In this document: piece by piece, positions 22,575 to 42,558 of the stretch
How positions within the stretch are numbered: the stretch's first letter is position 1
How the letters are laid out: each line of letters begins with the position of its first letter
Assembly (NCBI GenBank): GCA_021773115.1
Contig: JAJFKS010000006.1
Location: 62,001 to 126,000 of the forward strand
Source: Woeseiaceae bacterium
GTDB lineage: Bacteria; Pseudomonadota; Gammaproteobacteria; Steroidobacterales; Woeseiaceae
Length of the DNA stretch: 64,000 nt
Direction of reading: 5' to 3'
Made by a program: the position numbers and the translations under genes
Notes under the pieces: generated by a model
The model's input: only the letters and a program-made list of their open reading frames with translations
The model's database searches: none
Told to the model about the DNA's origin: nothing

Positions 22575-22858
22575 GGCCGTTCAATTACGTAGATTTCCGA
22601 AGAATCCGGACGCGCCAGCGACAGGTCATCTTTCGCAACCCGCTCGATGCGCGCATGTGTGGCCCAGGTGCTTTGCTCAATCTGCAACTGACCCCATTCA
22701 ATATTCAATTCGTCACGCTCGCGCGTCAGCGCTTCGAGCTCAACAAACAATTTTCGGGATTCGTGTTTCGTGTACACAATGGCTATTGAGCTCAACACGC
22801 AGACCAGCGCGAAGACGAAAACCAGCAGGAATGGCTGATGTGATTTCATGAGCTGCAT
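22571..22858 (-). CDS. ftsL: FtsL, divisome bitopic protein
   Basis: A 95-aa single-pass protein between rsmH and ftsI. The track ORF starts at 23077, deep inside rsmH; the ATG at 22858 (MQLMKSHQPF) overlaps the rsmH stop as ATGA. It has a membrane segment at about residues 8-28 and then a heptad-like coiled coil (KLFVELEALTRERDELNIEWGQLQIEQ), the layout by which FtsL pairs with FtsB and FtsQ. FtsL sequences are poorly conserved, so position and architecture carry the call. Confidence 0.93.
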   Translation of the reverse strand: MQLMKSHQPFLLVFVFALVCVLSSIAIVYTKHESRKLFVELEALTRERDELNIEWGQLQIEQSTWATHARIERVAKDDLSLARPDSSEIYVIERP

Positions 22859-23793
22859 CAGTTTCGCTCCGCGATTCGCAAGCGCGCGCTGCGCGAGCGA
22901 CGGTTCTCGTTGACCTCGGCAGTCGTTGCTTTGACGGCCCTGCCAATCGCACTCAATTTCGGGCGAAATTCGTCCGGCATCGATGGCATGCCGCGATACT
23001 GTTCCGGCTCTCGTGAGGTATCGCGAACAAATCGCTTTACGATTCGATCTTCCAGCGAATGGAAACTGATGACACACAATCGGCCACCCTTGCGAAGCAC
23101 CGCGAGTGATTGCTGCAACACTGATTCGAGTTGTTCGAGCTCACCGTTGATCGCGATTCGGATTGCCTGAAAGGTTTTGGTCGCCGGATGCTTTTTCTGC
23201 GCCCGCGCCTTTCCCGGAACCGCCGCCTCTACCAGCTTCGCCAGCTGTAGCGTCGTCCGGACAGGCGATTCAACACGAGTCGATACGATTGCGTTGGCAA
23301 TGCGTTTCGCAAACGTTTCTTCACCGTAGGCGCGTAACACGTGAATCAGCTCCCGCTCTTCCACAGACTGAAGCCAGTCACTCGCCGACGTGCCTGAGTC
23401 CGGGTCCATTCGCATATCGAGTGGGCCGTCGCGGAGGAAACTGAAGCCGCGATGGGCTTCATCCAGTTGCGGCGAGGAGACTCCCAGGTCGAAGAGCAAT
23501 CCATCGACTCGTCCGAGCAGGTCTCTTTCACCAATGATTTTCTGAAGTTCTGCAAGCTCACCTCTAATTAGTTCAAAGCGCGGATCGTCGGTCAGGGAAA
23601 GTGGCGCTGAAGCAATTGCGTCCGGGTCTCGATCGATACCGATCAGTCGTCCGTTCGAATTAAGCCGCTTCAGAATCTCCCCGCTGTGACCTCCGCGACC
23701 GAACGTTCCATCGACGTAACAGCCGTCTTGTTTTATTTCCAGCCCTTCGAGGACCGGCCCCAGCAGTACCGGAACATGCTCGTTACTGCTCAT
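22858..23793 (-). CDS. rsmH: RsmH (MraW), 16S rRNA C1402 N4-methyltransferase
   Basis: A 311-aa SAM-dependent methyltransferase. The SAM-binding motif YVDGTFGRGGHSGEIL, the LLFDLGVSSPQLDEAHRGFSF motif and the C-terminal VISFHSLEDRIVKRF are characteristic. It methylates N4 of C1402 in the ribosomal P site; RsmI, encoded at 43136-43975, adds the 2'-O-methyl group on the same nucleotide. It is the second gene of the dcw cluster, 15 bp after mraZ. Confidence 0.98.
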   Translation of the reverse strand: MSSNEHVPVLLGPVLEGLEIKQDGCYVDGTFGRGGHSGEILKRLNSNGRLIGIDRDPDAIASAPLSLTDDPRFELIRGELAELQKIIGERDLLGRVDGLLFDLGVSSPQLDEAHRGFSFLRDGPLDMRMDPDSGTSASDWLQSVEERELIHVLRAYGEETFAKRIANAIVSTRVESPVRTTLQLAKLVEAAVPGKARAQKKHPATKTFQAIRIAINGELEQLESVLQQSLAVLRKGGRLCVISFHSLEDRIVKRFVRDTSREPEQYRGMPSMPDEFRPKLSAIGRAVKATTAEVNENRRSRSARLRIAERN

Positions 23794-23808
23794 GCGATAA
23801 ACCGCCGC

Positions 23809-24258
23809 CTAGAAGGAAATTGATTCAAGGTCGGCGGGCATTTCACCGTCATCTTCTTCAGACAGCCATGCGTCGCGTTTCTCGTTCCAGGTTGCTTCAT
23901 CCCATAATTCAAACTTGTTGCCCTGACCGATCAGCATTGCTGTTCGCTCAAGGCTCGCGAATTCGCGGAGTTCTTTCGAAACCAGAATTCGCCCGTTGTT
24001 ATCCATGTCGACCTCGGTCGCATAACCGACCATAATTCGCACGATTCGCCGTGCGATTTTGTTCATGCTGGGCAGACGCACCAATTTTCGTTCGAGCTCT
24101 TCCCAGTCGGGCATCGGGTACACGAGGAGGCAGTGGTCCTTGTCGACAGTCACGATCAAATGGCCCTCACAACGGGCGATAAGCCGCTCCCGATACCGGG
24201 TCGGTATTGCCATACGCCCCTTGGCGTCCAGTGATACTTTCGTTGCCCCTCGAAACAC
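23809..24258 (-). CDS. mraZ: MraZ, transcriptional regulator of the dcw cluster
   Basis: An AbrB-like DNA-binding protein with two SpoVT-AbrB repeats, each with a conserved DxxGR core (LDAKGRMAIPTRYRE and MDNNGRILVSKELRE). The track start at 24327 would place the N-terminus on the MraZ operator itself; a GTG at 24258 starts VFRGATKVSLDAKGR, matching E. coli MFRGATLVNLDSKGR, giving 149 aa. In E. coli MraZ represses its own operon by binding 10-bp-spaced TGGG repeats just upstream; the same repeats are present here. Confidence 0.95.
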   Translation of the reverse strand: MFRGATKVSLDAKGRMAIPTRYRERLIARCEGHLIVTVDKDHCLLVYPMPDWEELERKLVRLPSMNKIARRIVRIMVGYATEVDMDNNGRILVSKELREFASLERTAMLIGQGNKFELWDEATWNEKRDAWLSEEDDGEMPADLESISF

Positions 24259-24312
24259 GATGATTCGGACGTGCCTGGAATCGCTCTTCTGGCGCGATAT
24301 CCGGGCTGGGCG

Positions 24313-24336
24313 CCCAGTTCCTCCCACTTTTTTCCA
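24313..24336 (-). promoter_or_regulatory. MraZ operator (three TGG(G/A) repeats at 10-bp spacing)
   Basis: Read on the minus strand: TGGAAAAAAG, then TGGGAGGAAC, then TGGG, each repeat start exactly 10 bp from the next (24336, 24326, 24316). This is the arrangement of the E. coli MraZ box. It lies just downstream of the -10 box, where bound MraZ would block transcription. Confidence 0.8.
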
Positions 24337-24620: not shown

Positions 24621-26741
24621 TTAAGGGTTTTTATTGCCGAGGCGGTAGCTGAAGCCGATTCCGACGATAAGGGCGTCGTCATCGTAAGGCCTTGCTCCGA
24701 GAGACAATATCACCGGAATCGCCGACGGGCTGACGCCGTCCAGCGACCAATCAGCCGTTTCGAATTGCTGATAGCGGACATCGATCCCCAGCGACAGCGT
24801 CGTGGAGCGTCGCCAGTCCAGTTTGAGCCTAAAGAAATCGAAGCTTGAGGTCAGGCTCGGGAACTGATCTGCTGCGGCGCCTGGTGTATCGATGCGGATT
24901 TTCGACTCGCCTTCCGACCGTGAGTAGTCGAGAGTCAGGTCAACGGCACCGCCAAGTTGGCGCAATCGCAGGCCTGCCCCATACAGCGTGAATTCATCAT
25001 CATGGCTTGCACGCCAGTCCTCACTGGCAAACTGCTCGCTGCCTGCCTGCCTGGATTCGAGTTTTTCAAAGCCACTGTTCACGAACAGGGACTTTGTGTC
25101 GGAGATGGTCCAGCTGACATCCGCGGTAACAGACAGCTCATCGCCGGAAAGCAGCCCAAGTCGCGACTGCGTGTATTCATCTTCAGCCTGTAGCCCGCTG
25201 ATCGAAATCGCCAGCGGCAGTTCAGACGGCGACCAGGAAAATCGCAATTCGCCGAAGCGGCGGTAACGATAGGCAAGATTGTATTTGCGTAAGACGGGAT
25301 TCTGGTCGAACGATAATGCGACTGACTCGTTATATTGATCGATGTCCCGTTCCGATACGCCACCTCGTGTGTCGATTTCCAGAGATGACGTCGGTCGCCA
25401 GCGCACCCTGCCCCAGCCCGTGTCCTCCGACTGGCTCTTGACTTCCTGATTATCGCGATCGGTGTCCACTCGATCATAGCCGCCGGAAACCCGAACCGTA
25501 TCAAACAAGTCGTAGTCAGCGCTCAGCTTCAGCTTGCCCCGCTCGAAACTGTAGGGTGTGTTCATTTCGGCATCGCCGCTCAGGACGCTGTCAACAATGA
25601 CGCGCTCCCATAAGGCCTCTGGCGTCTTATTGTCTCGTTTGTCGAAGCGATAACTTAGATTGACCCGCGATTTTCTGATTGGCCTTGTACTTAACGCGAA
25701 CGCCAGATTCGTCGTATCGACGTCACCACCCAGGGAGTTGCGTGGCAGGGGTGCTGGATTGAGGGCAGGATTCGTCGTATAGGCGAGAAAACCCGCGTCC
25801 TGGTCGATATTACCCAGTGCGGCCGAGGCACTGATAACTGTCCTGTAACGCGGCATCGAATAGCCACCCGATAGCGTTAGCTGCTGAAACTGGTTATCCG
25901 GTGGCTGTGCACGCAGTAGCGTGTCAGTGCCCAGTGGCGCGCTAAACGAAAACGGCTGCTGCCAGCGCGTGGCAGCATCGCTGCTCTCGAAGTCGGAGAG
26001 ATGCCAGCCGAGTAACACGAAACCGCTTTCTGCGTCATAACGCAGGCCAAGATCGACGCTGTCGGTCGTATAATCAAATGACGCAGGCAACAGACTTGCA
26101 TTGCTGAAGGTAGAGCCGCCCGCGATTTTCAGACCATCGTATTGCTGGCGGCGTAATTCAGCCGAAATACTGAATTGATTTGGCAGTTGGTAACGACCAC
26201 CCAGTTCAAGAATTCGCCGGTCACTCTGAATCGGCCGCGGTGTCAGGCTGGCATCGAGCGCAGTGAACTGTGAGGTCAGCGGCGCAGGTGCCCAGCCACC
26301 CGGGAGCAGCAGGTCCCCGTTTGTCGAATTCTGAAAAATACTCGAGCTTGTATCGAATCGTCGGCGCGGAATATCCCGCCACGAAACATTGATCTCGTAA
26401 ACGCCAGGCCGCCCGGCCTCAACGTGTGCGCGACGTGAATCAAGTCCAAGATCAGCAACTTCCCATTGCACTCGATAGCCATCGCTCGCGTATCGGCCCT
26501 CACCGTCGACGTTTGCGTAGGCACCCTTGTCATCGTAGCCGTTGGCATCGCCGAGGTAGGCGGAGTCGTCGCTAACACTGCTGACACCCAGCCGAAAATC
26601 GGCGCTGTGTCCTTCAGCAAATGGACAGTATTCGCAGACCCACTCGCTGGTGTCCGGAGCATCCGCCATGGTCGACGCGGCCATCAGTAGCAGCGTGCCT
26701 GCCGACAGGGCCCTGTATCCGGTGCGCGACGTGGTCATCAT
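24621..26741 (-). CDS. mtrB: MtrB/PioB-family outer-membrane beta-barrel
   Basis: A porin-like barrel of about 706 aa that in Shewanella wraps MtrA and lets electrons cross the outer membrane to MtrC. From the chosen ATG there is a signal peptide (RALSAGTLLLMAASTMADA) followed by WVCEYCPF, the N-terminal CxxC seen in the MtrB family, then repeated amphipathic strands with alternating aromatic and polar residues to the end (GIGFSYRLGNKNP, a typical C-terminal barrel strand). The track start at 26963 lies inside mtrA; ATG at 26741 or the next codon overlaps the mtrA stop. It is the last gene of an mtrC-mtrA-mtrB operon, the Shewanella order. Confidence 0.9.
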   Translation of the reverse strand: MMTTSRTGYRALSAGTLLLMAASTMADAPDTSEWVCEYCPFAEGHSADFRLGVSSVSDDSAYLGDANGYDDKGAYANVDGEGRYASDGYRVQWEVADLGLDSRRAHVEAGRPGVYEINVSWRDIPRRRFDTSSSIFQNSTNGDLLLPGGWAPAPLTSQFTALDASLTPRPIQSDRRILELGGRYQLPNQFSISAELRRQQYDGLKIAGGSTFSNASLLPASFDYTTDSVDLGLRYDAESGFVLLGWHLSDFESSDAATRWQQPFSFSAPLGTDTLLRAQPPDNQFQQLTLSGGYSMPRYRTVISASAALGNIDQDAGFLAYTTNPALNPAPLPRNSLGGDVDTTNLAFALSTRPIRKSRVNLSYRFDKRDNKTPEALWERVIVDSVLSGDAEMNTPYSFERGKLKLSADYDLFDTVRVSGGYDRVDTDRDNQEVKSQSEDTGWGRVRWRPTSSLEIDTRGGVSERDIDQYNESVALSFDQNPVLRKYNLAYRYRRFGELRFSWSPSELPLAISISGLQAEDEYTQSRLGLLSGDELSVTADVSWTISDTKSLFVNSGFEKLESRQAGSEQFASEDWRASHDDEFTLYGAGLRLRQLGGAVDLTLDYSRSEGESKIRIDTPGAAADQFPSLTSSFDFFRLKLDWRRSTTLSLGIDVRYQQFETADWSLDGVSPSAIPVILSLGARPYDDDALIVGIGFSYRLGNKNP

Positions 26742-27658
26742 CGCATTAACTTCGAACCGGACAGATGGTTCGATCCATGTACCTGGGAGTGGCAATTCAT
26801 GCAACTTTGTCCAAGTAAGTACTGCGACGGCAGGTCCGACGCCAGGCCATCGGTGCCATAGGCGATGCTGGGATGACCCGCCTGCGCATGGCAGCCCTGG
26901 CACAAAAGCGGCGCGCGTTTTGTCAGCATGCCCGAGTGATTCGAGCCATGTGCTGCGTGACACAAGCCACAGTCCTCACTAACTGGCGCGTGCTCCCACA
27001 GGAACGGGCCACGTTTTTCGGCGTGACAGTCAACGCAAGTATCGTTAAGGGTCTGCCGCGCCATAATGTTGGATGCATCGTCGGCATGCGTACTGTGGCA
27101 GCCGGTACACGTCATCTTGTCGTCGAAAAGCGGATGCCCGAAGGCTTTTAGCGTGTCATTACGCTGTCGCTGGTGGCAATTGCCGCAAACCTCGACCTGT
27201 GTCGCGACCTGCTGCACAGCATCTACCGCTGCGTGGCTGGTATGACAATCCGAGCAAGCAAGCTCATCGCTCGGGTGTGCACCATTGTGCCAGCCAAAAC
27301 CGACATCATTGCTGTGACAGTCCAGGCACATTCCGTTTTGTGCTTCGATTGACGCCACCGACCCTGGGTGGAAGGCAAAAATCGCCGGTCTTTCCGCGCC
27401 GCGTCGCACGCGCCCTGCGTGCGAGTCGCCGGGCCCGTGGCACGCCTCGCATTGCAACTGTCCGTGCCCAAAAGGACCGCGAGCATCCGACGGCACCGCG
27501 TGCTTCGTCTTGAAGATTGCCAGCGTCGTCGCATTATCGTGACAAGACAGGCAGGTATCAGCACCCTTGCGGCTGTATTCGGAGTCCTGGCCACGGACAT
27601 TTGATACGGCGACAGTCAGGAGGAGGACTGTCGCCATAAGCAGAGCGAAAATCCTCAC
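26738..27658 (-). CDS. mtrA: MtrA/DmsE-family periplasmic decaheme cytochrome c
   Basis: A signal peptide (VRIFALLMATVLLLTVAVSNVRG) precedes a protein of about 283 aa with exactly ten CxxCH sites (CLSCH, CEACH, CLDCH, CSDCH, CGNCH, CTGCH, CVDCH, CGLCH, CQGCH, CMNCH) in two pentaheme halves, as in MtrA and DmsE. It is expected to form a heme wire inside the MtrB barrel. The track start at 27679 is a GTG; a GTG at 27658 has GGAGG 7 nt upstream and gives a normal signal peptide, so I prefer it. It lies between the MtrC-like and MtrB genes. No DMSO reductase genes accompany it, which favours an MtrA role over DmsE. Confidence 0.93.
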   Translation of the reverse strand: MRIFALLMATVLLLTVAVSNVRGQDSEYSRKGADTCLSCHDNATTLAIFKTKHAVPSDARGPFGHGQLQCEACHGPGDSHAGRVRRGAERPAIFAFHPGSVASIEAQNGMCLDCHSNDVGFGWHNGAHPSDELACSDCHTSHAAVDAVQQVATQVEVCGNCHQRQRNDTLKAFGHPLFDDKMTCTGCHSTHADDASNIMARQTLNDTCVDCHAEKRGPFLWEHAPVSEDCGLCHAAHGSNHSGMLTKRAPLLCQGCHAQAGHPSIAYGTDGLASDLPSQYLLGQSCMNCHSQVHGSNHLSGSKLMR

Positions 27659-27679
27659 CCAAGCGCCTCCGATGTCCAC

Positions 27680-29911
27680 CTAGTTGAAGTCAAACTCACC
27701 GACACCGTGCACCACTTTGACATCTGCAGTTCGGCCGGGCCCGTGGCATAGCTGACAGGTCTCTACACCCGAGGAAATCAGGGCGCTGTCCGCCGCCTTG
27801 GTTGCCGCGAAATCACCACCGTTTTGCAACATGTGCTGTTTCGCCAGATCACTGCTATGGCAGGCTGAACAAACTGATGAATTAGGCGACACCACAAGGT
27901 CATCGGTCGGTGATAGCAAGTCGGCACCCACATCAATAGTCGTGGCAAGAACATTCGCCGGATCGACCGGATAGTATCCGCCTTCAACGTGGCAGCCTTC
28001 GCAGTTGTTCAGGCGACCTGGATAAACAAAGTCGAAGCTATGCGGAGCGTTTCCAAATCCGCAAACCTCATACGGCTGCCCACTGACCTCGGATCCGTGC
28101 AATGCATGGATCATGTACTTCATATCGATCGAAACATCGTCGCTCCCGAATTCGACCGCACAGTTGCCCGCACGGCGATTGATATCGGTTGCATTCGGAT
28201 TGTGGCAGGTGACGCAAACCTCAGGATTGTCTGTACGATTGTTGCCGTGCATTGACAAGCTCTTATGACAGTCAGCGCACTTCGTGATTGCGACGGCGTT
28301 GCGGCGCGCGACTGGCGCCGCATCCGTAACGGCTGCGTAGGCAACAGCATTTGTTACCGCGACCCTTTCAATGACGCCGTTGACATCGACCGCCGGATGA
28401 CCATCCATCGTGACCGCCAAACTACCGGACACGCTGGCAGGCACCGGTATCGGTGACGTGACACTAAAGATGCCGCCGCCCTCAGCGACGGATGTGCCAC
28501 CACAGGCTGTCAACGGATTCATCGACAATGGCTGACCCGGCGCGGCGCCGGTATCCGTATTTGCGTAGTCACGGGTATTCCACGCGATGCCGATCGCCAG
28601 TCGACTCGCGCCACCGGCACAGGTTGTAAAGACGACGTCATTCTGAATGTCGTACGGTGCATCGCCATTGGTGGGATCTGTGACGGAGAAGCGAACGACC
28701 GGTGTTTCGCCGACACCGGTATTGCTGACGTCAACGATATTGTACTGGAATCCCTCGCTGGCGAGTGCCGCCGGTATCTCATGCGCGACTGCTGTTCTGG
28801 CATCGCCATTATTAATCGTAGCGTCCGGTCCGTGACAATCCAGGCATTGCGTATCGTCAGTGAAGGTAAAGTTTCCAGGATGCCCGCCATTCGCAAAATC
28901 GATGTCGTCGTGACATGAGCCACAAGTTTCTCGATTGGCGACCAACCGCCAGTTGCTCGCATCGGGCGTATCCGCGTCAGACTCATCGTGGCAGGTTGAG
29001 CAATTGCGGACGTCCTGCGGAAATATGACACCGGAATAGTCATGCAGCGCGCCACCGAAGCCGATAACTGAATATCCGTTCGCAAGACTTGCACCGTTGT
29101 GAATCTTGTGGATCATCACTTTCATGTCCACTTTGCCACCCCAGGCCTCGTTCACCGTATCGCCGTCAATTGAAGACGGGTTGTGGCAAGTGACACAGTA
29201 GGTCACATCCGTTCTGGCGCCACCGTGAAACTCAAGCACGTCGTGGCATGCATTGCAGGTGTCGTTGTCGACGATGTCACGGGTAAACGTTGGCACACCT
29301 CCCGCCGGAACGAAGTCGAAAATTCCATTCGAGGAATTGGGCGCCTGGCCACGAATCTCGATACCCAGCCGATGACTCTTGCTCGCGTCAAACACCGGAC
29401 CGCCGGGGTAGGCGGTTAGCGCCTGAGCAAAGGTGTATGAATAAGTGCCGTCCGCATTATCGGTGAACGTACCCGAAGTGGCCGTCTCCGTATTGGCCTG
29501 GGCATTTGGAATGCCCGCACTGTTGCGCGTCACGTAAGACTGCCATTCGCTCGATCCGCCGCTGGACAATGGCGCCGGGGACAATTGCGACAGCACGAAT
29601 CGTATATCGCCGGCGGGCAGCCCAAATAGGCCCTGGGTAAGGTCATTGCTCAGCCTGAGTTCTACCGTCGGAGCACCTCCCCCGCTGGGTACTGATACGC
29701 TGGTAACCTCAATGTTGATCGAAGTCGCGCTGTCTACGGGTACCCCGTTGCCACTCGATGGACCCGGCGGCCCCGGTGGACCTGCAGTACCCGGTGGACC
29801 GGCGGCACCTGTGGCGCCCGCGCTGCCATCGCTGCCGCTACAACCCGTTAACAAAATCGCTGAGATTATTAGGCTGGCCCAAATAGCCTGCTGACATATC
29901 CGGTAGTGCAT
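27680..29911 (-). CDS. mtrC: OmcA/MtrC-family decaheme outer-membrane lipoprotein
   Basis: A surface cytochrome of about 743 aa. The ATG at 29911, with GGGGAAA upstream, starts a lipoprotein signal peptide ending in LLTGC. After the lipidated Cys comes a short collagen-like Gly-Xaa-Pro linker (GAAGPPGTAGPPGPPGPSSG), then beta-rich domains and ten CxxCH sites in two groups of five (CNACH to CLDCH, CADCH to CQLCH), the four-domain MtrC/OmcA plan. A further cysteine pair (VFTTCAGG and LTACGG) could form a disulphide in the second beta domain. The protein would exchange electrons with extracellular metals, humics or partner cells. First gene of the operon. Confidence 0.92.
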   Translation of the reverse strand: MHYRICQQAIWASLIISAILLTGCSGSDGSAGATGAAGPPGTAGPPGPPGPSSGNGVPVDSATSINIEVTSVSVPSGGGAPTVELRLSNDLTQGLFGLPAGDIRFVLSQLSPAPLSSGGSSEWQSYVTRNSAGIPNAQANTETATSGTFTDNADGTYSYTFAQALTAYPGGPVFDASKSHRLGIEIRGQAPNSSNGIFDFVPAGGVPTFTRDIVDNDTCNACHDVLEFHGGARTDVTYCVTCHNPSSIDGDTVNEAWGGKVDMKVMIHKIHNGASLANGYSVIGFGGALHDYSGVIFPQDVRNCSTCHDESDADTPDASNWRLVANRETCGSCHDDIDFANGGHPGNFTFTDDTQCLDCHGPDATINNGDARTAVAHEIPAALASEGFQYNIVDVSNTGVGETPVVRFSVTDPTNGDAPYDIQNDVVFTTCAGGASRLAIGIAWNTRDYANTDTGAAPGQPLSMNPLTACGGTSVAEGGGIFSVTSPIPVPASVSGSLAVTMDGHPAVDVNGVIERVAVTNAVAYAAVTDAAPVARRNAVAITKCADCHKSLSMHGNNRTDNPEVCVTCHNPNATDINRRAGNCAVEFGSDDVSIDMKYMIHALHGSEVSGQPYEVCGFGNAPHSFDFVYPGRLNNCEGCHVEGGYYPVDPANVLATTIDVGADLLSPTDDLVVSPNSSVCSACHSSDLAKQHMLQNGGDFAATKAADSALISSGVETCQLCHGPGRTADVKVVHGVGEFDFN

Positions 29912-30018
29912 AGATTTCCCCGTTTGTGCGGCGCGGCGGAGCGCATTCACGCGCGTCTCTTGTGTAGTACATCTTTTAGCAGTTGCAGATGGATATTCTT
30001 ATCGTGTGAATGCACAGC

Positions 30019-30035
30019 GTAATTGCGGCAATTAC
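30019..30035. promoter_or_regulatory. Perfect 17-bp palindrome, candidate operator
   Basis: GTAATTGCGGCAATTAC: 8-bp arms around a single central G. It lies 76 bp before the plus-strand operon and about 108 bp before the mtr start, a good site for one regulator to control both. The half-site does not match a regulator I can name. Confidence 0.55.
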
Positions 30036-30081
30036 CTACAGGGATATCTGTCCGTTCGTGAAACAATCAGCTGTGGTTAGA

Positions 30082-30095
30082 TTGTCGTCAATCAA
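30082..30095. promoter_or_regulatory. Partial FNR-like site
   Basis: TTGTCGTCAATCAA matches the FNR consensus TTGAT-N4-ATCAA perfectly in the right half and at three of five positions in the left. It sits only 15 bp before the start codon, so it would act as a repressor site for the plus-strand operon, or at a distance on the mtr side. Confidence 0.25.
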
Positions 30096-30110
30096 AACAG
30101 GGTATAAGCG

Positions 30111-30719
30111 ATGCAACAAATGAGCGGAATTATTCTCTTGATTATGCTCGGCCTGCCAGGAGCCGCGTTGGCAAGCGACTTGCAGGCTACCATCGGCGCC
30201 TGCGCCGACTGTCACGGCGACAATGGCGTCAGCCGGTGGGATGACGTACCCACGATCGCTGGCATCGATGCCTTTGTTGGCTCGGAAGCACTGTTTATTT
30301 ATCGCGACAGGGAACGGCCCTGTTCCAAGTCAGACTATCGCCAGGGTGATACCGCGCGCGCCGCCACCGACATGTGCGAAATCGTCAGCCAAATCAGCGA
30401 CACTATGATTGAAGACATTGCAGCGCATTTCAGCGAGCTGCCGTTTGTTGCCGCACAGCAGGATTTCGACGCTGCCAAGGCGGCGCTTGGCCAAACAATT
30501 CACGAACAAAGCTGCGAACGCTGTCATTCGGGAGGCGGCAGCAAGGCTGACGACGAAGCCAGCATCCTCGCAGGACAATGGAGTGGCTACCTTAGAACGG
30601 CATTTGCCGAATACGCATCGGGTCAACGTGAGCAGCTTGACAAGATGAAAGCGGCTATGGACTCACTCAGCGCCGAAGATACTGATGCTTTGATTCACTA
30701 CTATGCCAGCCAGCAATGA
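30111..30719 (+). CDS. Diheme cytochrome c, like the FccA subunit of flavocytochrome c
   Basis: A periplasmic cytochrome (202 aa) with a signal peptide (IILLIMLGLPGAALAS) and two CxxCH hemes (CADCH, CERCH) in two c4-like halves. The second half (CERCHSGGGSKADDEASILAGQWSGYL and the C-terminal HYYASQQ) resembles the diheme subunit of Allochromatium flavocytochrome c sulfide dehydrogenase, as I remember it. No FccB flavoprotein is encoded nearby, so it probably serves as a stand-alone electron carrier. An extra cysteine pair (RPCSKSD, TDMCEIV) lies in the first half. It starts the operon with the NTF2-like, NapC-like and frdCAB genes and is divergent from mtrC. Confidence 0.85.
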   Translation: MQQMSGIILLIMLGLPGAALASDLQATIGACADCHGDNGVSRWDDVPTIAGIDAFVGSEALFIYRDRERPCSKSDYRQGDTARAATDMCEIVSQISDTMIEDIAAHFSELPFVAAQQDFDAAKAALGQTIHEQSCERCHSGGGSKADDEASILAGQWSGYLRTAFAEYASGQREQLDKMKAAMDSLSAEDTDALIHYYASQQ

Positions 30720-31090
30720 GCAGCGTCGCTCCCGACCGATTGGTGTTGGAGAATCTTTTCGCCGCGATTGACGCGATGGATACCGCGAGGTTTACCGATT
30801 TCTTTAAAGACGATGCACTATTCCGCTTCGGGTCAGCACCCGTAACCGCCGGCAAAGCAGCGATCGCCGAGGCGGTCAGTGAATTTTTCAGGAGCATCGC
30901 GGCCCTTCGGCACGATATTGACTTTGTGATATCCCAGGGTGACGCAATAGTTGTCGAAGGTTGTGTGACTTACACCCGACATGACGGTCGTCGTGTCGTT
31001 CTCCCTTTCGCCAACATAATCACGATGGATGGATCAAAGATCGCTAATTACAAAATCTACCTGGACATCGCGCCGCTGTATGCGGACTAA
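30716..31090 (+). CDS. NTF2/SnoaL-like small protein
   Basis: A 124-aa protein with the cone-like NTF2 fold pattern: an N-terminal helix pair (LENLFAAIDAMDTARFTDFFKDDALFRFG), an APVTAGKAAIAEAV segment and a C-terminal sheet (VVEGCVTYTRHDGRRVVLPFANIITMDGSKIANYKIYLDIAPLY). There is no signal peptide, so it is cytoplasmic. Its start overlaps the preceding stop (ATGA), so it is translationally coupled to the cytochrome gene. Members of this superfamily can be enzymes, ligand binders or structural subunits; nothing here fixes which. A role in cofactor handling or regulation for the operon is a guess. Confidence 0.8.
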   Translation: MSSVAPDRLVLENLFAAIDAMDTARFTDFFKDDALFRFGSAPVTAGKAAIAEAVSEFFRSIAALRHDIDFVISQGDAIVVEGCVTYTRHDGRRVVLPFANIITMDGSKIANYKIYLDIAPLYAD

Positions 31091-31096
31091 CCCACT

Positions 31097-31726
31097 GTGC
31101 AAGAAGACAACGTGAAAACTCCATCGAAGCTCTGGGCCAAACCCCGCAGCAAGTGGCTGCTCGGTATTCCAATCGGTGCGTTTCTGGCGTTCGCCCTGGG
31201 TGCGATTGGCCTTGGCACGACCAACTACGTATTGCATGCAAGCAGCACAACAGCGTTTTGCTACACCTGTCATTCGCATGAAAATTTCATAAAACCCGAG
31301 TATGAAGCGTCCAGCCATTTTGCCAATGCATCCGGAGTTCGAGCAACCTGCGCCGATTGCCATCTGCCGCACGACAACTGGTTCGAACTGGTCTGGACGA
31401 AAATGGTCGTATCGCTGGATGTCATTCCGGAGTTAGCGGGAAAACTGGATACTGCGGAGAAATACGAGGCTCATCGAGCCGACATGGCGCAAACGGTATG
31501 GCGACATTTCAAGGAAAATGACTCCAAATTTTGCCGTAGCTGCCACAGCATCGAGGCAATGGACCTGGCTGCGCAGAATAGAACATCAGCACGACGGCAT
31601 TCACAAGCCGAAGAAAATGGGCAGACCTGTATCGACTGCCATTACGGCATAGTTCACAAAGAACCTGAAAATGCGACTACGTTATTTGACGCAATCGCCG
31701 CCGAGTTTGCCGAACCGTCCGAATAA
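31097..31726 (+). CDS. NapC/NirT-family tetraheme quinol dehydrogenase
   Basis: A 209-aa protein with one N-terminal membrane anchor (about residues 20-45) and four CxxCH sites (CYTCH, CADCH, CRSCH, CIDCH), the NapC/NrfH/CymA plan. The last heme region (CIDCHYGIVHKEP) is typical of NapC. Such proteins oxidise quinol in the membrane and pass electrons to periplasmic partners. There is no nitrate or nitrite reductase nearby, so its partners are likely the FccA-like cytochrome and, through it, MtrA, a role like that of CymA in Shewanella. Start: GTG at 31097 or GTG at 31112. It overlaps frdC by about 56 bp. Confidence 0.9.
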   Translation: MQEDNVKTPSKLWAKPRSKWLLGIPIGAFLAFALGAIGLGTTNYVLHASSTTAFCYTCHSHENFIKPEYEASSHFANASGVRATCADCHLPHDNWFELVWTKMVVSLDVIPELAGKLDTAEKYEAHRADMAQTVWRHFKENDSKFCRSCHSIEAMDLAAQNRTSARRHSQAEENGQTCIDCHYGIVHKEPENATTLFDAIAAEFAEPSE

Positions 31727-32423
31727 GCGGCCAGTTACGGCCACCGCACACCGCGAGTTCTTGCTCGAATTATTGAGTGGCGGCAGTGGCCTGTTTCTCG
31801 CGCTCTTTATGTGGGGTCACATGTTACTGGTCGGGTCAATCCTCACCGGGCAACGGGGCTTCGACTGGATGGCCAACACGCTGGAAGACTATTACATCGC
31901 GCAACCCACCGTCATCATCATCTTTGGCCTGTTTCTGCTGCACGCGGTATTGGCCAGTCGCAAGATTCCAGCGCAATTGCGCGACCGGGCAGCGCTTAAA
32001 AAACTGGCGCGCGACTTGCGGCCGCACGAAGAATCACTGCTGTGGATCTGGCAAGTCCGGACCGGTATGGCGGTACTGGTGCTCGGAAGCTTCCATATTA
32101 TTCTTCTGGCACTCGACGTACTCACCCCGCTGTTCGGAGACCGTAGCGGGATCGAAGCGGTCACGAGTATTGCGCGGGTACGGGCGGGCCTCTGGCTGCC
32201 GTATGCCATCCTGCTGATCTGTGTCGAGTTCCATGCCAGCGTCGGACTCTATCGACTCGCCATTAAATGGGGCGGCGGCTCGCGCGTGTCGCGAAACACC
32301 CTGCGGCGAATCGAAAAACTCCTGCTTTGGTTTTTCCTGGGGCTCGGCGCTGTTGTCTTGCTGGTGCTCGCCGGCGTTGTGCCGGCACCGCTGGAGTTTC
32401 TCGTCGCAGTGGAGGCCGTTTGA
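31671..32423 (+). CDS. frdC: FrdC, diheme cytochrome b subunit of quinol:fumarate reductase (Wolinella type)
   Basis: A 250-aa five-helix membrane subunit. From memory it aligns with Wolinella FrdC: SGLFLALFMWGHMLLVGSIL, then FLLHAVLASRKIP, LGSFHIILLALD and VEFHASVGLYRLAIKWG. The four His in these segments are the expected ligands of two b hemes, and the Glu before the last His (VEFH) corresponds to the residue of the proposed E-pathway. The start overlaps the NapC-like gene by 56 bp; the first 25 residues are not conserved, so a later start is possible. It is followed by frdA with a TGATG junction. Confidence 0.9.
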   Translation: MRLRYLTQSPPSLPNRPNKRPVTATAHREFLLELLSGGSGLFLALFMWGHMLLVGSILTGQRGFDWMANTLEDYYIAQPTVIIIFGLFLLHAVLASRKIPAQLRDRAALKKLARDLRPHEESLLWIWQVRTGMAVLVLGSFHIILLALDVLTPLFGDRSGIEAVTSIARVRAGLWLPYAILLICVEFHASVGLYRLAIKWGGGSRVSRNTLRRIEKLLLWFFLGLGAVVLLVLAGVVPAPLEFLVAVEAV

Positions 32424-34348
32424 TGCGCTCAATCGAAAGTACCGATGTGCTGGTGATTGGCGGCGGACTGGCTGGAGAGCGCGCAGCGATCGAAGCTGCC
32501 GCGGCCGGGCAGAATGTCCTGATTCTGTCGCTTGTGCCGCCGCGTCGCAGCCATAGCTGCGCGGCCCAGGGCGGCATGCAGGCTGCCCTCGGCAACTGCG
32601 TAAAAGCCGAGGGCGACAATCCTTGCATTCACTACAAGGATACCGTTCGCGGTTCAGACTGGGGCGCGGACCAGGACGTTGCGCGACTGTTTGCGGAGCA
32701 GGCGCCGCGAGCAGTACGTGAACTCGCCCACATGGGCGTACCGTGGACACGCGTGCGCGGCGGAAACAACAGTTATTTCATTCGCGGCGAGCGGGTCAGT
32801 ATCGACGAGTCTGTCGACAATGACGGCCTGATCATGCATCGCGATTTCGGTGGTACCGCGAAATGGCGTGCCTGTTATGCGGCAGCCGGCACCGGTCATG
32901 CTGTGCTCTATGCGATCGATAGCGAAGTGGTGCGACTTGGCATCAATGTCAGGGACCGCGTCGAGGCTGTACAACTCATCCACGATGGTCAGCGCTGCTT
33001 TGGCGCGATTGTACGTTGTCTGCGCAGCGGCATTTTCTTTCCGGTGCTCGCCAAAGCGACCGTTATCGCGACCGGCGGGCACGGCCGAATATTTGGCCAA
33101 TACACGACAAACGCGACCATAAATGAAGGCATGGGGGCGGCGATCGCTCTGAATACCGGTGTTGTGCCGCTGGGGAACATGGAGGCCGTGCAGTTTCACC
33201 CCACCGCACTGGCGCCGAGTGGAATATTAATCACAGAAGGCTGCCGCGGCGATGGTGCCTATCTGCTGAATCGACAGCTGCAGCGCTTCATGGTGGACGC
33301 CGAGCCGGAAAAACAGGAACTCGCCAGTCGTGATGTGGTGTCGCGCCACATGGCGGTTCAAATGCGGGATGGACATGGCGTCGATACGGCGTTCGGACCG
33401 CATTTATGGCTCGACCTCCGACACCTGGGTGCCGAACACATCCGAACAAAGTTGCGTGAAGTTTTCGATATTTGCCGAGATTTTGTTGGTATTGATCCCG
33501 CTAACGAACTCATTCCCGTTCGACCCACGCAACACTATTCAATGGGCGGCATTCGCGTGAACCGTGACGGGCAGGCCTACAACCTGGGCGGCCTGTTTGC
33601 GGCCGGTGAAGCCGCGTGCTGGGATATGCACGGCTTCAACCGGCTCGGCGGCAACAGCCTGGCTGAGACTATCGTCGCAGGGCGTATCGTTGGGCAATGC
33701 GCCGCGGAGTTCGCAAAAGGCTGTCGCCTGGACGCACAACTGGACATCGCGACGGATGCCTGTGATCAGGCCGAACGGCGCGCCCGTAACTGGTTACAAC
33801 GAAGCGGTACCGGACCGAGCATCTATGCCATTCGCGACGAAATGGCGGAAACGATGATCAACCGCGTTGGCATTTTCCGGAATGGCGACGAACTGGAGCA
33901 AGCGCTTAGCGAACTTCAAGCGCAGTTGCTTGCCTGCAACGTAGCGGTACTCCGTAGTAAAGCACCCGGAATGAATCCTGAACTGACTTTCGCCCTGCGA
34001 CTCGAGAATATGCTGAAACTCGCCATCATTACCACCATGGGTGCCCTCGCTCGCACCGAAAGTCGCGGCGCACACAGCCGCACGGATTTTCCGCTTCGAG
34101 ATGACGATCGGTGGCTAAATCGCACGCTGGCCCGCTGGCCGACCGGCCGTGATGAGCCGGAACTGACTTACGAACCGGTCGGATTGCTCGACTTGCCACC
34201 GGGACACCGCGGCTATGGCGACGATTCGCGAATCCCGATGCGACGCTCAATCGATGAGTACAACGCCGAGGTCGATGGGCTGCAAAAAGCAGCGGGGCGC
34301 ATCGATTTGATGGGCGCGCAAGGCCGGACAGCAGGGAGCGCCGCGTGA
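32423..34348 (+). CDS. frdA: FrdA, flavoprotein subunit of fumarate reductase / succinate dehydrogenase
   Basis: A 641-aa flavoprotein. The FAD-binding VLVIGGGLAGERAA lies at residues 9-22, and RSHSCAAQGGMQAA carries the His for covalent FAD. Substrate-binding motifs are visible: QFHPTALAPSG, the catalytic Arg region ELASRDVVSRHMA, RPTQHYSMGG, and DMHGFNRLGGNSLAE. The track start at 32267 is inside frdC; the ATG at 32423 fits. The length and gene order C-A-B match epsilonproteobacterial fumarate reductase rather than the sdhCDAB operon. Sequence alone does not decide the direction of the reaction. Confidence 0.93.
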   Translation: MRSIESTDVLVIGGGLAGERAAIEAAAAGQNVLILSLVPPRRSHSCAAQGGMQAALGNCVKAEGDNPCIHYKDTVRGSDWGADQDVARLFAEQAPRAVRELAHMGVPWTRVRGGNNSYFIRGERVSIDESVDNDGLIMHRDFGGTAKWRACYAAAGTGHAVLYAIDSEVVRLGINVRDRVEAVQLIHDGQRCFGAIVRCLRSGIFFPVLAKATVIATGGHGRIFGQYTTNATINEGMGAAIALNTGVVPLGNMEAVQFHPTALAPSGILITEGCRGDGAYLLNRQLQRFMVDAEPEKQELASRDVVSRHMAVQMRDGHGVDTAFGPHLWLDLRHLGAEHIRTKLREVFDICRDFVGIDPANELIPVRPTQHYSMGGIRVNRDGQAYNLGGLFAAGEAACWDMHGFNRLGGNSLAETIVAGRIVGQCAAEFAKGCRLDAQLDIATDACDQAERRARNWLQRSGTGPSIYAIRDEMAETMINRVGIFRNGDELEQALSELQAQLLACNVAVLRSKAPGMNPELTFALRLENMLKLAIITTMGALARTESRGAHSRTDFPLRDDDRWLNRTLARWPTGRDEPELTYEPVGLLDLPPGHRGYGDDSRIPMRRSIDEYNAEVDGLQKAAGRIDLMGAQGRTAGSAA

Positions 34349-35094
34349 GCAAGCAAATGACATCCGTACCCCGACACCTGACCTTTGAAATATTTCGCTT
34401 CAATCCGCATGAGCCGGACGGTGAACCGCACATGCAGCGGTTCGAAATAGAAGAAACACCCTACATGTCGCTGTTCATTGCCCTGAACAAGATCCGTGAA
34501 ACTCAAGATCCCAGCCTGCAATTCGACTTTGCCTGCCGCTCGGCGATTTGCGGCTCCTGCGGCATGATGGTGAACGGCAAACCGTCACTGGGGTGCCGGA
34601 CCCTGACAGCGGACCTGCCCGAACTGATCCGACTGCAGCCATTGCCCGTGTTCAAACTGATCGGGGACTTGTCTGTCGATACCGGCGTCTGGTTTCGTGA
34701 AATGGCCCAGAGCACGGAGGCCTGGATTCACGCCAAAGAAGCTTTCGACCCGCAGGCCGATGAACAACGCATGGATGACGAACTCGCGAATACTTTGTAC
34801 GAAAGTGATCGTTGCATCGAATGCGGATGTTGCGTTGCCGCTTGTGGCGTAGCTCGCATTACAAAAGACTTCAAGGGTCCGGCCGGCCTGAATCGTATTG
34901 CACGCTTTATGATGGATCCGCGTGACGAGCGTGGCGATCAAGACTGGTTCGAGGTCATCGCCAACAAAGACGGTGTATTTGCTTGCCTCGGCATGATGGC
35001 CTGTCACGACATCTGTCCGAAGGAACTGCCTCTGCTCGAGGTTTACGCCTATCTGCGCCGTAAGGCACTCACGACAAAGTCCCGAGACGACTAG
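34345..35094 (+). CDS. frdB: FrdB, iron-sulfur subunit of fumarate reductase
   Basis: A 249-aa protein with the three expected clusters: [2Fe-2S] in CRSAICGSCGMMVNGKPSLGC, [4Fe-4S] in CIECGCCVAAC, and the [3Fe-4S]/[4Fe-4S] remainder in CLGMMACHDICPKELP. It wires FrdA to the FrdC hemes. It overlaps frdA by 4 bp and is the last gene of the operon. Its TAG stop lies inside a perfect palindrome shared with the stop of the converging CBS gene. Confidence 0.93.
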   Translation: MSKQMTSVPRHLTFEIFRFNPHEPDGEPHMQRFEIEETPYMSLFIALNKIRETQDPSLQFDFACRSAICGSCGMMVNGKPSLGCRTLTADLPELIRLQPLPVFKLIGDLSVDTGVWFREMAQSTEAWIHAKEAFDPQADEQRMDDELANTLYESDRCIECGCCVAACGVARITKDFKGPAGLNRIARFMMDPRDERGDQDWFEVIANKDGVFACLGMMACHDICPKELPLLEVYAYLRRKALTTKSRDD

Positions 35095-41571: not shown

Positions 41572-42558
41572 TCAGGCGGCGAAAATGGCGACGTACAGCG
41601 CAAATATTGCAAGCCACAACGAACCCAGAGTATGAATAGCGAGCGTTGACTCAATCGCTGCCGTCAGTCGCTGTCGATCCGCGATACCCTCGCGAATTGC
41701 GCCGGCCGCCCTGACTACCAGGATCAGCAATCCAATGGGTAACAGGACGACCGTGATCGGGAGCTGACCACGGACAGCCATCGTAATCACCGCCAGAACG
41801 GCAATGACCTGAATGGCGACGTACAGAATCGCGGTACCGCTGAGCCCTAGTCTTACCGGCAATGTATTTTTACCGTTTGAGCCGTCCGGGCGAATGTCGG
41901 GCACCTCATTGATTAACAGGATCGATGCAACCCAGGCGCTGATCGGTACCGCAAAAAGCAGCGACTCAAGGTCGACGACACCGCTCTGCAACCACGCGGC
42001 CCCGGTGACCGGCAATATGCCAAAGGCTACGCCGACCGCGGTCTCCCCGAGTCCCATCGATGCCAGTCGGACCGGGCCCAGCGAATACATGACTGCCAAT
42101 AAGACACCTGTCATGCCGAAGCCGAGCACCACCCAACCACGCATCAACATCAGTACCAATCCGGCAATCGCAGCGACGGTGAGCAGGCTGATTCCCAGTC
42201 GTGCCATACCGGAAACAGACATGATTCCCGTCTGGATAAATCGCGAACCGCCGGTATAGGGGTAAATACGATCGTCATTGCTGCGGTCTGTGCCGCCGAA
42301 GTCGTCACCGACGTCATTCAGCACATTGGCGCCGGCATGCACACAGGCGGTCGCCAACAGTGCCAGAAGAAATACAACGAAATCGAACTGCCCCGCGACA
42401 TGAAAACCCCAGGCCGTGCCTGCTATGACCGGTAGCACGGATGCCGGAAAAAACTTCGGACGTGTGGCGTTGAACGCGCGGTTGGCATTGGCCCGGAACG
42501 AATCACCGCGGAATTGCTGCACGGAAGGTCCGGTTACCTCAAGAGAGTCTGGCGGCAT
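41572..42558 (-). CDS. UbiA-superfamily prenyltransferase, MenA-like
   Basis: A 328-aa polytopic protein. The two Asp-rich motifs of the UbiA superfamily are present: NVLNDVGDDFGGTD and NEVPDIRPDGSNGKNTLPV. The second, with the following RLG, resembles MenA (dihydroxynaphthoate octaprenyltransferase) more than UbiA or heme O synthase, and GGSRFIQTGIMS also fits MenA. If so, it makes demethylmenaquinone. It is the first gene of the nqr operon, which suggests that the quinone it makes is used by the neighbouring enzymes. The first 25 residues are polar and not conserved. A different aromatic acceptor is possible. Confidence 0.8.
   Translation of the reverse strand: MPPDSLEVTGPSVQQFRGDSFRANANRAFNATRPKFFPASVLPVIAGTAWGFHVAGQFDFVVFLLALLATACVHAGANVLNDVGDDFGGTDRSNDDRIYPYTGGSRFIQTGIMSVSGMARLGISLLTVAAIAGLVLMLMRGWVVLGFGMTGVLLAVMYSLGPVRLASMGLGETAVGVAFGILPVTGAAWLQSGVVDLESLLFAVPISAWVASILLINEVPDIRPDGSNGKNTLPVRLGLSGTAILYVAIQVIAVLAVITMAVRGQLPITVVLLPIGLLILVVRAAGAIREGIADRQRLTAAIESTLAIHTLGSLWLAIFALYVAIFAA

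Follow-up and report, generated by a model that had tools for sequence, protein, structure and literature searches.

Three adjacent genes lie on the minus strand at positions 24621-29911 of the window, the whole 64,000-nucleotide stretch of DNA that was analyzed from a Woeseiaceae gammaproteobacterium. The first, mtrC (27680-29911), encodes a surface decaheme lipoprotein of the OmcA/MtrC family whose ten CxxCH motifs form two groups of five, C-terminal to the lipobox LLTGC. It scored 510.6 bits against TIGR03507 (curated cut-off, 209) and matched the structures of MtrF (PDB 3pmq) and 6r2q_C. It is directly followed by mtrA (26738-27679), which encodes a periplasmic decaheme cytochrome with ten CxxCH motifs (TIGR03508, 253 bits; curated cut-off, 192). 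The start of mtrB (24621-26741) overlaps the end of mtrA; its product is an outer-membrane barrel with a CEYC (CxxC) motif close to the mature N-terminus, and it was recognized by both TIGR03509 (355.8 bits; curated cut-off, 240) and PF11854 (E 5e-121). A preliminary description of this DNA had placed three such genes here in the mtrC-mtrA-mtrB order of Shewanella; the coordinates, the heme counts, the CxxC motif and the C-A-B order were all borne out. Its statement that there is no second mtr set holds genome-wide: in an MtrC/MtrF domain profile search of the whole genome (4.41 Mb, 99.6% complete), the cut-off was passed at one locus only, and no second set was found.

In MtrC, a collagen-like Gly-X-Y stretch (GPPGPPGP; window 29741-29833, minus strand) separates the decaheme domains from the lipid anchor. 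It is present in relatives too and may serve as a stalk. On the other side of the gene set, the dcw cluster (mraZ, rsmH; window 22858-24327) adjoins mtrB. The same arrangement was seen in the nearest relative, G100 (L163), and in none of the other loci fetched.

The three proteins were compared with the chains of the MtrCAB complex in PDB 6R2Q. MtrA matched chain A with an E value of 9e-73, MtrB matched chain B with 1.2e-67, and MtrC matched chain C with 3e-30. The AlphaFold model of MtrB, built from 45 sequences, had a pLDDT of 90.6 and displayed 24 long strands plus two interrupted pairs, which fits a 26-strand barrel. It superposed on 6r2q_B with TM-scores of 0.88/0.93, an rmsd of 2.4 and 25% identity in the structural alignment; the next solved folds were TonB-dependent receptors, with TM-scores near 0.4. 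The model of MtrA was poor (pLDDT 65) and contained no hemes, and the evidence taken from it is therefore restricted to its fold match, the sole significant one being 6r2q_A. Homology to 6R2Q suggests that MtrA would sit inside MtrB and be joined to MtrC as one complex. The mtrCAB locus is real and complete, and it is predicted to encode a trans-envelope electron conduit.

Trees of MtrC, MtrA, and MtrB pointed the same way, since the nearest locus was identical for all three proteins and each fell inside a mostly Woeseiaceae clade. The closest relative found was JAJFKU010000017 (L090; MtrC identity, 76%), and many of the named relatives are Woeseiaceae metagenome-assembled genomes. Among the 107 Woeseiaceae genomes searched, 51 carried MtrC (E below 1e-60). 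Plasmid transfer was considered and rejected: among 72,556 plasmid records there was one weak match, of 28% identity, from Photobacterium. The conduit is not new to the Woeseiaceae, for mtrCAB has already been reported in Woeseiaceae/Woeseiales genomes (PMC12175321; PMC12687941; PMC11442690). The reading of the locus as a conduit stood, supported by the family models, the 6R2Q chains, the MtrB model and the three trees; the suggestion that it lies in a lineage where such a system was not known to be described did not, and the locus proved larger than the span first assigned to it.

The additional part is a divergent plus-strand operon, pdsA-snoaL-cymA-frdCAB (30111-35094), located 200 bp upstream of mtrC and outside that span. 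Its first gene (30111-30719) encodes a periplasmic diheme cytochrome with two CxxCH motifs. Its homologues stand beside mtrC in relatives, and we call it PdsA-like because its score against NF049874, 187 bits, is below the curated cut-off of 330. Next comes a gene for a SnoaL-like protein (30716-31090; PF12680, E 9e-16), which is kept in the cluster across Woeseiaceae. The third gene (31097-31726) encodes a CymA/NapC-type tetraheme quinol dehydrogenase, an assignment made from the NapC/NirT domain (PF03264, E 3e-60) and four CxxCH motifs rather than from a CymA-specific model. Downstream of frdCAB lie a CBS-domain gene, nqrF-A and then a gene for a MenA-like prenyltransferase.

The three frd genes together have the features of a di-heme (type B) quinol:fumarate reductase. 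FrdC, the di-heme cytochrome b subunit (31671-32423, start codon uncertain; plus strand), matched 2bs2_C with an E value of 3e-26 and keeps all four heme-ligand histidines as well as the two glutamates, Glu66 and Glu180, of the menaquinol-using Wolinella enzyme. The flavoprotein subunit FrdA (32423-34348, plus strand) scored 924 bits against NF006383 (cut-off, 663) and matched solved structures (5xmj_A, 1e7p_A), and the iron-sulfur subunit FrdB (34345-35094, plus strand) scored 370 bits against NF010071 (cut-off, 264). Apart from this FrdA, the source genome encodes a more distant SdhA/FrdA homologue (40% identity). The frdA gene of the mtr locus was found in 39 of 51 MtrC-positive and 9 of 56 MtrC-negative Woeseiaceae genomes (Fisher p 2e-10, uncorrected for shared ancestry). 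Since the remaining 12 of the 51 lack it, the conduit does not require FrdCAB. The Geobacter FrdCAB is bifunctional (PMC12307469); therefore, the Woeseiaceae enzyme could oxidize succinate during metal respiration and otherwise reduce fumarate.

The upstream neighborhood was also surveyed in the 22 clusters in which MtrC identity was 52% or higher and the upstream sequence extended for 8.5 kb or more. The pdsA gene was present in 20/22, frd in 13/22, cymA in 7/22, and a module built around an eleven-heme/cytochrome b561 protein in 12/22. In relatives, pdsA and snoaL stay close to mtrCAB, and the inner-membrane module takes one of two forms. The first is cymA, in many cases accompanied by a gene for a HemN-like radical SAM protein; the second is a two-protein pair, consisting of the eleven-heme (undecaheme)/b561 protein and a five-heme (pentaheme) NapC-like protein. 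This pair takes the place of cymA in many relatives, for example at L044:13461-16870 and its equivalents in L039, L041, and L174. The pair is possibly an alternative quinol dehydrogenase.

The CymA of Shewanella is linked to menaquinone. In the source genome, neither menD (80 bits; cut-off, 244) nor menB (113 bits; cut-off, 343) was found above its cut-off, and MqnA/D were not found; at the cut-offs used, a de novo menaquinone pathway was not detected there. The menD result was shared by 105 of 107 Woeseiaceae genomes. The searches do work within the family, because they recovered menD, menB, an isochorismate synthase-like gene and a menA fragment in G029 (on L132) and menD in G094. A complete lack of menaquinone enzymes was ruled out by the MenA-like gene at 41572-42558 (minus strand), directly upstream of nqrA. 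The MenA-like product exceeded the cut-off of TIGR00751 (114.9 bits vs 102) and fell below that of NF004751 (157 bits vs 264). Its gene occupies the spot upstream of nqrA in 9 of the 13 MtrC-positive genomes in which the spot is visible. The four in which it is absent there are G021, G120, G121, and G029; of these, G029 carries men genes of its own. Homologues with 47-53% identity also occur near mtrCAB in seven distant loci (L094, L100, L117, L121, L123, L124, L129).

A second pdsA-hemN-cymA set is located on contig 13 (L034:2935-10253), back to back with ubiU, ubiV, ubiD, and ubiT. UbiT, UbiU, and UbiV scored above their own cut-offs, and the operon represents the O2-independent ubiquinone pathway. 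Hydrogenase-maturation (hyp) genes follow. The link between ubiU and MtrC across genomes was weak (8 of 10 ubiU-positive genomes being MtrC-positive; p 0.03, uncorrected). The methyltransferases of the source genome were listed, and none was assigned to RquA, for which a reference model was lacking. Ubiquinone, rhodoquinone, and menaquinone finished from scavenged 1,4-dihydroxy-2-naphthoate (DHNA) are possible candidates for the quinone. The extracellular electron transfer of Lactiplantibacillus plantarum, which uses exogenous quinones, offers a partial precedent (PMC10746273). We tentatively propose, as an idea that is somewhat doubtful, that Woeseiaceae may drive MtrCAB without de novo menaquinone, with CymA and the menaquinone-type FrdCAB being fed either by ubiquinol, which the ubiUVT-ubiD operon would supply in the absence of O2 as well, or by a naphthoquinone that the nqr-linked, orphan MenA-like enzyme would finish from a scavenged precursor such as DHNA. 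If so, extracellular respiration would hinge on another quinone or on cross-feeding. The quinone gap makes it testable whether respiration through MtrCAB and CymA needs de novo menaquinone.

Considering the conduit together with its neighbors, we regard it as probable (roughly 0.72) that the system exports respiratory electrons, from quinol through CymA, the PdsA-like protein and MtrCAB to an extracellular acceptor. Quinol in the inner membrane would be oxidized by the CymA-type tetraheme protein, and the PdsA-like diheme cytochrome would carry the electrons across the periplasm to MtrA. MtrA, sheathed by the MtrB barrel, would pass them to MtrC at the surface for the reduction of Fe(III)/Mn(IV) oxides or of some other acceptor outside the cell, with Nqr and FrdCAB acting on the quinone pool. 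What the data show directly is the gene content, the heme counts, the MtrB fold, the conserved clustering and the co-occurrence, whereas we infer the assembly of this path, its outward direction, its acceptor and its coupling to FrdCAB. Outward flow is favored because the partners are of the PdsA and CymA types and the source genome shows no strong RuBisCO match. Against the path, the PdsA-like match is below its curated cut-off and no de novo menaquinone genes were found at the cut-offs used. For most organisms with MtrCAB, direction cannot be inferred from genes (PMC8805035).

The reverse direction, with electrons drawn by MtrCAB from Fe(II), minerals or partner cells and delivered by the PdsA- and CymA-like proteins to the quinone pool or to FrdCAB for the reduction of fumarate, appears unlikely, and it has several points in its favor. 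The PioAB homologues of MtrAB run inward, and MtrCAB is reversible in the laboratory. Moreover, frd genes beside mtr might support both directions (PMC8805035), and RuBisCO was commoner in MtrC-positive (11/51) than in MtrC-negative (2/56) Woeseiaceae, in uncorrected counts. Given this frequency of the RuBisCO large subunit, some MtrC-positive relatives may be autotrophs that possess a conduit. In the source genome, however, the RuBisCO-like match was weak (71 bits, as compared with 417-469 bits in 12 relatives), and autotrophic iron oxidation was rejected for this organism on that basis. Furthermore, its PdsA- and CymA-like neighbors resemble the characterized partners of metal-reducing MtrCAB systems (PMC8805035).

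Electrons could also flow outward for a purpose other than growth, with the excess being discarded at oxic-anoxic boundaries for redox balance or survival and no dedicated respiratory acceptor. A cytochrome bc1 complex is encoded in the window, indicating that the organism is not exclusively anaerobic, and a de novo pathway for a low-potential quinone was not found in the source genome, both of which are consistent with this role; yet in many relatives the conduit is coupled to frdCAB and a complete set of feeder genes, which points to a respiratory chain, and we consider mere electron disposal very unlikely. A conduit of the DmsE/DmsF type, whose electrons would go to a terminal reductase outside the cell (DMSO reductase, for example) and not to metals, is brought to mind by the MtrA family model TIGR03508, which is named for DmsE. 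The presence of a full-length surface decaheme MtrC and the finding of no molybdopterin reductase match among the genes at 24621-35094 make it highly improbable, close to negligible. Respiratory electron export stays the preferred reading. Woeseiaceae are widespread in sediments (PMC12175321, PMC12687941); equipped with a conserved conduit, a feeder of its own and a linked complex II, these bacteria would be candidate contributors to metal respiration in the seabed.

Several known systems resemble this locus. Published mtrCAB of sediment Woeseiaceae (PMC12175321; PMC12687941; PMC11442690) belong to the same family and comprise the same three genes. Those papers describe their presence in metagenome-assembled genomes, and the accessible parts do not take up the frdCAB neighborhood, the swapping of one inner-membrane module for another, or the quinone gap. 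The present analysis adds the conserved feeder and frdCAB neighborhood, the two inner-membrane modules that can stand in for each other, and the quinone question. The Shewanella MtrCAB (PDB 6R2Q, from S. baltica) shares the gene order, ten hemes in each of MtrC and MtrA, the CxxC of the barrel and the MtrB fold; the Woeseiaceae locus differs in that it has neither omcA nor a second mtr set and in that pdsA, cymA, and frdCAB adjoin the conduit genes. The MtrCAB-PdsA-CymA system of Vibrio natriegens, likened here by its description (PMC8805035), is similarly encoded with PdsA and CymA partners. In contrast, the PdsA-like protein of the present locus scores below its cut-off, frdCAB is added, and menD and menB were not found in the source genome. 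The FrdCAB enzymes of Wolinella and Geobacter (2BS2; PMC12307469) share the four heme-ligand histidines, Glu66 and Glu180 of FrdC and an FrdA match with an E value of 1e-202, but none of the known markers of de novo menaquinone synthesis was found in the Woeseiaceae source genome. An frd operon beside mtrCAB has been noted earlier in betaproteobacteria (group 4; PMC8805035); that operon is frdABCD, whereas the one in the Woeseiaceae locus is of the di-heme Wolinella/Geobacter type.
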